From positions 1-64,000 of the forward strand of contig NZ_RQYL01000015.1 in NCBI RefSeq assembly GCF_003860125.1: a stretch of DNA of 64,000 nt, given 5' to 3'. The position numbers and the translations under genes are program-made. Below, in pieces: positions 43,927-46,717 of this stretch. The notes beneath the pieces are model-generated. The model saw only the letters and a list, made by a program, of their open reading frames with translations, made no database searches and was not told the DNA's origin. The DNA comes from Fretibacterium sp. OH1220_COT-178. GTDB lineage: Bacteria; Synergistota; Synergistia; Synergistales; Aminobacteriaceae. Position 1 is the stretch's first letter. Each line of letters begins with the position of its first letter.

Positions 43927-44322
43927 ATGTCATCACAACGATGGACGCAATCTAAAACGTGTGTTTTTAATATTGGCTACCACCTCATCTGGTGTCCTAA
44001 ATACAGGCGCAGGGTGTTGGTAGGTGACGTGGAAAGCAGACTGAAGGGGCTTCTGTATGAGAAGGCCGAAGAAATCGGCGTATCTATTGAAAGATTGGAG
44101 ATCATGCCGGATCATGTTCATCTTTTCATCAAAACAAAACCTGTAAACGCACCACACTATGTAGTTCAGCAGTTTAAGGGCTACACTTCGCGTTTTTTGC
44201 GTTCAGAATTTCCCCATCTCTTGAAGATGCCTTCCCTTTGGACGCGTTCGTACTATTAATCCGTAGGTCATATCTCTGAAAAAACAGTGCTTAAATACAT
44301 TGAGGAGCAAAAGAATAAGTGA
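43927..44322 (+). pseudogene. tnpA: TnpA Y1 transposase, interrupted by a nonsense codon
   Basis: The protein starts MSSQRWTQSKTCVFNIGYHL and carries the HUH motif (DHVHLFI), but TAA at 44257-44259 stops it after LWTRSYY. In the same frame the family sequence continues SVGHISEKTVLKYIEEQKNK to TGA at 44320-44322. The lost part contains the catalytic tyrosine (KYIEEQ). Without readthrough the enzyme cannot cut DNA, so the copy should be immobile unless helped in trans. Confidence 0.85.
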
Positions 44323-45458
44323 GAACCTACGTTTTTAAGCTCTATCAGTCAAAGAAGCACAGACGGCTGCACCGAACGATCGACGTTGCCGGGTGCATCT
44401 GGAATCACCTCATTGCCCTGCACCGCAGGTATTATCACCGTTATCAGAAGAGCTTAAACATCACGCGCATCCAACTTCACATCACAAAACTCAAGAAAAC
44501 GAAGCGCTTTGCGTTCTGGAGCACATTGGGCTCTCAGGCTATTCAGGATATTGCCCAGAGGATTGACCGAGCCTACAGATCATTTTTTCGTAACCTGAAA
44601 CACGGACTTAAGACTGCGCCGCCGAACTTCAGGGCTGTAAAAAAGTATCGCTCCTTCACGTTGAAACAAGCGGGATGGAAACTGCTCCCGAAGAACCGCG
44701 TTGTCATCATGGGCAAGGAGTACAAATACTTCAAATCCCGAGAGGTTGCAGGGAAAGTTAAGACTGTCACGGTGAAACGCGACTCTGTCGGCGACCTGTG
44801 GCTCTTTTTTGTCGTAGAGGAAGGGGAAGTCCCAATAGAGGTCAGATCGGGTGAAATCGTCGGCCTCGACTTCGGGCTCAAGACCTTCCTCACAACGTCG
44901 AAAGGGGAATATATCCAAAGCCATTTGTTCTTCAAGCGCAACGCGAAGCTCCTGAAGGACCTGTCCCGAAAGCTCAGCAGGAAAAAGCCTGGGAGCAACA
45001 ATCGCAGTAAGGCTCGCCTTGCATTGGCTCGTGCACATCGCAGAACGGCAAACCAGCGCAGGGACTTTCACTTCAAGACGGCGCTGGCACTGGCGCGAGA
45101 ATATGTCCCTGTCGTCGTCGAAGACTTAAACTTGAAGGCAATGCAGCGACTTTGGGGGCGGAAAATATCCGATCTCGGACATGCCGCCTTTCTGAATATC
45201 CTGAGCTGGGAATGCTTTAAGAACGGTTCCCGACTTCTGAAGATCGACAGATTCTATCCATCAAGCAAAACCTGCTCAAAATGCGGATATGCGCTTGCGG
45301 AGCTGCCTTTGTCCATGCGAAGCTGGCAATGTCCGATATGCAGTGCTGTCCATGATCGCGACATAAACGCCGCGAAAAATATCCAGAGAGTGGGGGCATC
45401 CACTCTTAAGAGAGAAGACGTAAGACCGGCTTCGGCCGGCTGTCTTTGTCGATCTTAG
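44319..45458 (+). CDS. tnpB: TnpB RNA-guided nuclease, apparently intact
   Basis: A 379-residue TnpB. The RuvC residues are in place: D184 in VGLDFGLKTF, E268 in VVEDLNLKAM and the final Asp in HDRDINAAKNI (346-348). The zinc finger has C319-x2-C322 and C338-x2-C341. GTG at 44319 overlaps the old tnpA stop (GTGA). TnpB uses a guide RNA transcribed from its own 3' end through the right end of the element; the guide here would begin in flanking DNA after about 45491. The target-adjacent motif would be TTAC by analogy. Confidence 0.9.
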   Translation: MRTYVFKLYQSKKHRRLHRTIDVAGCIWNHLIALHRRYYHRYQKSLNITRIQLHITKLKKTKRFAFWSTLGSQAIQDIAQRIDRAYRSFFRNLKHGLKTAPPNFRAVKKYRSFTLKQAGWKLLPKNRVVIMGKEYKYFKSREVAGKVKTVTVKRDSVGDLWLFFVVEEGEVPIEVRSGEIVGLDFGLKTFLTTSKGEYIQSHLFFKRNAKLLKDLSRKLSRKKPGSNNRSKARLALARAHRRTANQRRDFHFKTALALAREYVPVVVEDLNLKAMQRLWGRKISDLGHAAFLNILSWECFKNGSRLLKIDRFYPSSKTCSKCGYALAELPLSMRSWQCPICSAVHDRDINAAKNIQRVGASTLKREDVRPASAGCLCRS

Positions 45459-45565
45459 AATCCCACGAATTTATTCGTGGGAGTATGTCAATTTGCGATT
45501 TGGCCACGGACACTCGTTGTCGCCTCCTTCATATTTCGTATGCAAAAATCCGTAAGAGCTCTCAC

Positions 45566-45659: not shown

Positions 45660-46010
45660 ATGAAGATGGTTTTGTTGTCCGTCGCCCTTCTGGCCGTCAT
45701 GCTTGCGCCGGCGCACGCCGAGTCCAAGAAGCTGCCGACCCTGAGGTCCCTGTCGACCCCCACCTGACCCGCCTGTGTGCAGATGTCCAAGGTCTTGGAC
45801 GAGATCAACGAAAAGTACGCGGGCAAGCTGGTGGCCGAGAAGGTGGATGTCAATCAGCATCCCGAAGTGGCCCGGGAGCACAACGTGCGCTACGTCCCCA
45901 CCCTTCTCTTCATCGACGCCGAGGGTAAGGTCCTCAGGCAGGAGGTCGGCTACCGCAGCCTGGATCAGGTGCTGAGCATCTTCAAAGAGGCGGGTGTCAC
46001 CATCGAATAA
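45660..46010 (+). CDS. Exported thioredoxin-like selenoprotein with a UPAC active site
   Basis: A 116-residue protein read through UGA at 45765-45767. ATG at 45660 follows GGAAAGGA and encodes a signal peptide (VLLSVALLAVMLAPAHA). The active site is TPT-U36-P-A-C39-VQM, where thioredoxins have CxxC; the cis-proline motif follows in the same frame (VRYVPTLLFID), with the thioredoxin end EVGYRSLDQVLSIFKEAG. The coding sense is continuous across UGA. A perfect 6-bp hairpin with loop GGUC (45785-45800) lies 17 bases after the UGA, fitting a bacterial SECIS. The stop overlaps the ccdA start, so the two probably form a periplasmic electron relay. A nonsense mutation is the alternative but would not explain the SECIS fold or the position at the first active-site Cys. 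Confidence 0.85.
45785..45800 (+). promoter_or_regulatory. Putative bSECIS of the thioredoxin selenoprotein
   Basis: GTCCAA-GGTC-TTGGAC: six perfect base pairs and a GGUC loop; the loop begins 23 bases after the UGA. The loop resembles the GGUC of the Escherichia coli fdhF element. Confidence 0.7.
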
Positions 46011-46717
46011 TGCTTGACGCCATCTTCTCCGCGATGTACTCGAGCGGCCCCCTCCAGTGGGCGGGCGCCTTCCTGTGGGGGGTGGCGAGCGTCATCCTGA
46101 GCCCCTGCGGCATCGCCGCCATCCCTCTGGTCGTCGGCTACATCGAGAACACGGACAACCCCAGCCGCTGGGAGGCCTTCAAGATCTCGTGCGCCTTCTG
46201 CAGCGGAATCGTGCTGAATCTGATGCTGGTGGGATTCGTCACCTCGAGCTTCGGCCTTCTTCTGGGCGGCAACGAGCGTTTTCTGACCCTCTTCGTTGCC
46301 GTCGTCTTCATCCTGATGGGGCTCCACCTGACGGGACTGGTGCACTTCAAGTTCTTCTCGTTCGGGGGAGGCGGCTCCACCGAGCGCCGCGGACTGTGGG
46401 GCGCCCTGATCCTGGGCGTCGTCTCGGGGCTCGCCATCGGGCCGTGCAGCATCGCCTACATCACCCCGGTACTGTCGCTGGCCGCGGCTCAGGCCTCGCG
46501 GGGCCTCGCCTTCTCCTTCGGCCTGATCGCCGCCTACGCGCTGGGTTACAGCGCGGTGCTCGTGGCGGCCGGAACCTTCGCCCAGCTCGCGTCCGGATGG
46601 CTCCAGAGCGAACGGGGGCAGACCACCCTGCGCGTCCTGAACTTCGTCTGCGGCGTGGTGCTGATCGGGGTAGGGATCTACCTGGGACACAGCGTACTTT
46701 ACGTCTACTTCGCCTGA
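46010..46717 (+). CDS. ccdA: CcdA-family thiol-reducing membrane protein
   Basis: A 235-residue protein with six membrane segments that carries electrons from cytoplasmic thioredoxin to the periplasm. The two reactive cysteines are in SPCGIAAIPLVVGYIE (segment 1) and GPCSIAYITPVLSLA (segment 4). It starts inside the stop codon of the selenoprotein (TAATG). The partner in most bacteria is a cysteine thioredoxin such as ResA or CcmG. Confidence 0.92.
   Translation: MLDAIFSAMYSSGPLQWAGAFLWGVASVILSPCGIAAIPLVVGYIENTDNPSRWEAFKISCAFCSGIVLNLMLVGFVTSSFGLLLGGNERFLTLFVAVVFILMGLHLTGLVHFKFFSFGGGGSTERRGLWGALILGVVSGLAIGPCSIAYITPVLSLAAAQASRGLAFSFGLIAAYALGYSAVLVAAGTFAQLASGWLQSERGQTTLRVLNFVCGVVLIGVGIYLGHSVLYVYFA

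Follow-up and report, generated by a model that had tools for sequence, protein, structure and literature searches.

The gene pair and its surroundings

The window, by which we mean the whole stretch of 64,000 nucleotides from Fretibacterium sp. OH1220_COT-178, an anaerobe of the Synergistota, that was analysed, contains two overlapping genes, here called Sec-Trx and ccdA, whose features are collected in Table 1. Translated with TGA as selenocysteine (U), the first frame reads MKMVLLSVALLAVMLAPAHA-ESKK...TPT-U36-PAC39...P80..., and this confirms the original prediction of a thioredoxin in which UGA occupies the first position of the active site. The protein scores above the gathering thresholds of the Pfam families Thioredoxin (44.8 bits) and Thioredoxin_2 (39.6 bits), and its AlphaFold2 model (mean pLDDT 89.8) has a thioredoxin fold; when this model was used in a fold search, thioredoxins were retrieved at Z scores of about 14-15, with classical thioredoxins first among the matches listed. 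The N-terminus has a basic start, a hydrophobic core and the residues AHA ahead of E21, and residues 1-20 are modelled with a pLDDT of 54-59. Its homologues likewise have a signal or an N-terminal anchor. Export, which had also been proposed originally, is supported by the signal peptide as read from the sequence, and we consider it very probable.

Table 1. Positions of the features of the Sec-Trx/ccdA locus in the window
Feature	Position	Strand	Remarks
Sec-Trx gene	45660..46010	+	predicted exported thioredoxin-fold protein, 116 residues, U36 (UGA), motif U-P-A-C
Predicted signal peptide MKMVLLSVALLAVMLAPAHA	45660..45719	+	residues 1-20, read from sequence
UGA, putative Sec codon, position 36	45765..45767	+	homologues have UGA or a Cys codon at the aligned position
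Resolving cysteine C39	45774..45776	+	invariant, 30/30 members
Putative bSECIS hairpin GTCCAA-GGTC-TTGGAC	45785..45800	+	starts 17 bases after TGA; comparative support
cis-Proline P80	45897..45899	+	invariant, 30/30 members
TAATG overlap, Sec-Trx stop/ccdA start	46008..46012	+	TAA 46008-46010, ATG 46010-46012, one base in common
ccdA, DsbD transmembrane-domain family	46010..46717	+	235 residues; PF02683 37.7 bits, cut-off 27.1
CcdA C33 (SPC), first membrane cysteine	46106..46108	+	invariant, 21/21
CcdA C146 (GPC), second membrane cysteine	46445..46447	+	invariant, 21/21

The second gene gave the only DsbD_TM match in a search of the genome. The two membrane cysteines of its product were compared in an alignment of 21 members, one of them betaproteobacterial, and a sequence search of the PDB with CcdA returned nothing but spurious weak matches. 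The overlap between the Sec-Trx stop codon and the ccdA start codon is as had been described, and because of it we consider that both proteins are probably made from the same mRNA by translational coupling. The partnership with CcdA originally suggested is supported.

Directly upstream of Sec-Trx lies an IS200/IS605-like element (43927-45482) with a TnpA-like gene (43927-44259), a TnpB-like gene (44319-45458) and the inverted repeat TCCCACGAA...TTCGTGGGA, located around 45461-45482. This element may have taken the place of the native promoter of Sec-Trx.

Decoding of the UGA codon

Several lines of evidence indicate that the UGA codon is read as selenocysteine. The genome encodes the required machinery, namely selA (547 bits), selB (at least 320 bits), selD (327 bits) and tRNA-Sec (74 bits). 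Its selD (contig C2, 39932-40867) has an in-frame TGA of its own, like known selenocysteine-containing SelD. Relatives of Sec-Trx were sought in 188 Synergistota genomes and found in 144, and UGA is present at exactly the codon for position 36 in 28 of these, the genome under study included; a 29th genome (G169), in which UGA occurs in a divergent thioredoxin (U-P-P-C), was left out of this count. In the remaining comparable relatives, three paralogues excepted, the position is taken by Cys, encoded by TGC or TGT in the members examined. Tandem thioredoxin paralogues were observed at three loci (L047, L076 and L077, in genomes G070, G085 and G086, respectively); in the second copy, the first active-site Cys has been lost and Ser is found instead (S-P-E-C, S-S-E-C). 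The gene selB was detected in 26 of the 28 UGA genomes, the assemblies of the other two being 80% and 86% complete.

The hairpin that follows the UGA codon has the position and sequence originally given for it, and the apical loop GGTC starts with G, as is asked of a bSECIS element. However, in single-sequence folding the hairpin did not surpass shuffled sequences (z +0.5 to -1.5), and for this reason the hairpin alone is not taken as evidence. It is the comparison between genes that makes it strong evidence. Within the family to which the window's gene belongs, the complete six-pair stem is present in 18 of 19 distinct UGA genes, as opposed to 2 of 31 Cys genes (Fisher test, 1.9e-10, uncorrected for kinship). 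One pair of the stem has changed on both sides, from U-A to G-C, in five sequences, and sliding the hairpin arms lowers the pairing from 98% to at most 64%. All 19 UGA genes use TTG for the Leu encoded in the 3' arm, compared with 4 of the 23 Cys genes having Leu there. Thus, since the stem is complete in UGA genes, rare in Cys genes and subject to compensatory change, the hairpin behaves as a bSECIS. The more distant UGA members (families f6 and f7) have a different hairpin, which also covaries. The change of the stem from GTCC...GGAC to GGCC...GGCC replaces Ser/Asp by Ala/Ala in the protein, and the RNA stem therefore appears to constrain protein residues.

Two Cys genes, L027 (genome G059) and L021 (genome G034), can still form a paired hairpin where the SECIS element would lie, and no selB was found in G059. 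These paired stems are likely to be relics of a former selenocysteine gene.

The alternative to selenocysteine is that translation truly stops at UGA, or that the assembly shows TGA in error where the genome has TGC or TGT; Sec-Trx would then be either a pseudogene or a thioredoxin of the ordinary Cys type. It is true that a single base separates TGA from TGC and TGT, and that many homologues have Cys. On the other hand, the same codon is found in 27 other genomes, so that neither a sequencing error nor a chance stop can account for it; moreover, the reading frame is conserved on both sides of UGA, the machinery is present, and the hairpin tracks UGA rather than Cys. We therefore regard this alternative as extremely improbable. 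The circumstances under which the original prediction was to be abandoned (no selenocysteine machinery in the genome, unrelated residues at this codon in homologues, or a misread base) do not apply here, and decoding of UGA45765 as selenocysteine can, on these comparisons, be considered almost certain.

Distribution of the gene pair

The search of Synergistota for Sec and Cys homologues beside ccdA, which had been proposed as a check, yielded both forms. Counted as distinct loci and without correction, those linked to ccdA comprise 25 with Sec and 5 with Cys, and those not linked to it 6 with Sec and 28 with Cys; ccdA thus lies immediately 3' of the UGA gene at 25 of 31 distinct UGA loci. Within Synergistota, therefore, the thioredoxin beside ccdA usually has the Sec form, and the view that selenocysteine in an exported thioredoxin paired with CcdA is unusual is not supported in those terms; pairs of a Cys thioredoxin with CcdA, for their part, are common (PMC3914529). 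When kinship was allowed for, the relation between Sec and ccdA linkage was not significant (6 independent pairs, median p 0.5), and we therefore do not claim on statistical grounds that the two go together. The tree needs at least 10 changes between Sec and Cys, and selenocysteine is therefore not essential to the module.

A ccdA gene is present somewhere in 27 of the 28 UGA genomes. The remaining one, G106, has an assembly that is 77% complete and a Sec-Trx locus without ccdA; at this locus (L045) the immediate downstream neighbour of the UGA thioredoxin is the gene that in G105 (L083) comes after ccdA, an apparent loss of ccdA. In two genomes (G067 and G070) ccdA is located elsewhere, apart from the UGA gene, and one genome (G038) contains two copies of the UGA gene, one of them without ccdA alongside. 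In the genomes of group g10 that were examined, the thioredoxin gene and ccdA are separated and each survives elsewhere, the former adjoining unrelated genes. Near the pair, at loci L087 (6656-7117) and L088 (1147-1608), we observed peroxiredoxin-like frames with an abrupt start, VSAVADRYEE, as if the part before an in-frame UGA were missing; possibly, these encode a peroxiredoxin that contains selenocysteine.

Outside the phylum, the Sec form was sought in 398 sampled genomes of another phylum. Among the matches listed there was one with UGA, a membrane-anchored UxxC (U-S-V-C) protein that resembles thioredoxin, has UGA as its first active-site codon and lacks ccdA nearby (L118, 1440-1875, in G302). 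The ten best matches in these genomes all have Cys, and nearly all of them have ccdA in the examined stretch. As judged from these best matches and from Sulfuricella, tandem genes for a Cys thioredoxin and CcdA are widespread.

The proposed relay and its relation to known systems

The Sec-Trx/CcdA pair is best explained as a thiol relay across the membrane, in which selenocysteine is the outermost component. SelB and tRNA-Sec would decode UGA45765 on the hairpin starting 17 bases downstream, as the comparisons indicate, and the product would leave the cytoplasm by means of its signal peptide. By homology to the CcdA-Etrx systems and to DsbD, a cytoplasmic thioredoxin would pass electrons to the C33/C146 pair of CcdA, which would in turn reduce the U36-C39 selenenylsulfide of the exported thioredoxin. 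Electrons would in this way flow through a selenenylsulfide, and the reduced selenol would then reduce oxidised periplasmic proteins. Reduction of Sec-Trx by CcdA is likely by analogy with these systems, and the same can be said of insertion of selenocysteine, export and reduction by CcdA taken jointly, leaving the client aside.

Regarding the client, the genome contains an MsrA-MsrB fusion (contig C5, 74012-74917; L127/L131), the N-terminus of which, RYGLFSALLVAGILLLWGGTRMASA, reads as a signal peptide. It is encoded on a different contig from the Sec-Trx/ccdA pair, and it is its presence and apparent export that make a tie to the pair plausible. Because no second DsbD_TM protein was found in the genome, the pair would be the natural donor for MsrAB. 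This protein would be the most likely client in the genome, and the relay would then feed a path of methionine-sulfoxide repair, an assignment that we put forward tentatively and by analogy.

Two other roles have to be weighed against this one. The relay could serve the maturation of cytochrome c rather than repair, with Sec-Trx acting as a CcmG/ResA-like apocytochrome reductase fed by CcdA. The names would fit, as CcdA/DsbD_TM is named for cytochrome c biogenesis and the Pfam family name points the same way. However, inspection by eye of the frames of nine larger loci revealed no recognisable maturation gene beside the pair, and the sequence and fold matches listed are classical thioredoxins, which makes this role improbable. 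A broader role, either in general periplasmic disulfide isomerisation or reduction of DsbC/DsbG-like clients or in the reduction of selenium or sulfur compounds, and without involvement of MsrAB, deserves more weight than the cytochrome c role. It would agree with the lack of any acceptor gene linked to the pair, and with the persistence of the g10 thioredoxin away from ccdA among unrelated neighbours. Still, it seems rather unlikely in view of the MsrAB with an apparent signal peptide in a genome where no second DsbD-type membrane donor was found, and of the closest Cys system, for which MsrAB has been characterised as the client (PMC3914529).

If the relay does keep exported MsrAB reduced, periplasmic repair would hinge on the supply of selenium, and it is as a testable selenium-dependent repair path that the pair is of interest. 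In broader terms, Synergistota might possess an old selenium-dependent relay across the membrane in which the sole DsbD-type electron carrier of the genome charges a periplasmic selenenylsulfide thioredoxin that keeps exported MsrAB, and perhaps other thiol enzymes, reduced; we offer this with more reserve than the assignment of MsrAB itself. The pair would make selenocysteine the outer terminus of a DsbD/CcdA relay, where the literature found characterises Cys only, and it would tie periplasmic thiol homeostasis to selenium in a selenoprotein-rich phylum (PMC5029168). As thirteen selenoprotein genes have been counted for Aminobacterium sp. MB27-C1 (PMC12013277), single members of the Sec-Trx family may already be included in published selenoprotein lists. 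No paper joining selenocysteine with CcdA was found, and the selenoprotein-neighbourhood papers of Haft might still describe such a pair. The gene is likely to be cut at UGA by automatic annotation, given that no curated NCBI selenoprotein model matches; no NCBIfam selenoprotein model matched above its cut-off.

The known selenoproteins nearest to Sec-Trx are described in surveys. The class cd02953 is of the DsbD-gamma type. The GOS survey assigns its thiol:disulfide interchange selenoprotein to this class under the name 'Trx-like 2' (PMC2398784), and lists of predicted selenoproteins contain a thiol:disulfide interchange protein (PF13098, UxxC, WP_011366075) as well as a thioredoxin (UxxC) (PMC9312934, PMC13188914). 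Like the former, Sec-Trx combines a UxxC motif (UPAC) with a DsbD-gamma-type thioredoxin domain, and with its Thioredoxin_2 score it passes the PF13098 gathering cut-off of 27; the relevant entries give no operon, export or partner for that protein. With the selenocysteine thioredoxin (PF00085, UxxC, WP_010956703) it shares the fold and Sec at the first active-site position; the corresponding entries in published lists mention no link to CcdA or export. As UxxC thiol:disulfide interchange selenoproteins have already been catalogued (PMC9312934, PMC13188914, PMC2398784), the description of the pair as a distinct reducing pathway, originally envisaged, is not supported in those words.

TsoB (NF045694), a selenoprotein resembling a rhodanese/DsbD fusion, also joins Sec with a membrane module of the DsbD type and an end that resembles thioredoxin. 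In contrast to the two separate genes described here, TsoB is a single fused protein with a rhodanese part and UxxxxU, and the window's proteins score 17.7 and 20.5 bits against its cut-off of 805. Other candidates that were rejected are the arsenical efflux permease ArsG (NF040495; 43.1 bits, cut-off 200) and the thioredoxin equivalog TIGR01068 (45.4 bits, cut-off 96.8). Neither SaoT (NF040730) nor the HUIPC thioredoxin-like family (NF047660) gave a match at E<=0.1, or any among the 30 members at 1e-5.

The closest parallels are found among Cys systems. In S. pneumoniae, CcdA1-Etrx1 and CcdA2-Etrx2 act on SpMsrAB2: CcdA takes electrons from cytoplasmic thioredoxin and hands them to a surface thioredoxin, which reduces MsrAB (PMC3914529). 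As in that system, whose operons are bicistronic or tricistronic, CcdA is encoded together with a thioredoxin-fold protein that is exported, as judged here from its signal sequence, and Sec-Trx has UXXC where an Etrx has CXXC. Electrons reach an extracytoplasmic MsrAB there, and an MsrAB with a signal peptide is encoded in the present genome. Unlike the Etrx proteins, which are Cys-containing lipoproteins, Sec-Trx has Sec for the first Cys and a cleavable-looking signal, and msrAB lies outside the operon. The tandem genes for a Cys thioredoxin and CcdA in Sulfuricella denitrificans (NC_022358) and in the phylum around G189 have the same order, overlap or nearly overlap, and encode homologous proteins, which differ in having Cys where Sec-Trx has selenocysteine. 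Sec-Trx is thus, on the sequence comparisons, a real and conserved selenoprotein with a likely redox partner, and the Sec-Trx/CcdA pair represents a known electron relay in a selenocysteine version rather than a new type of system. The occurrence of Sec and Cys versions of this pair in close relatives makes a direct test of the contribution of selenium possible.
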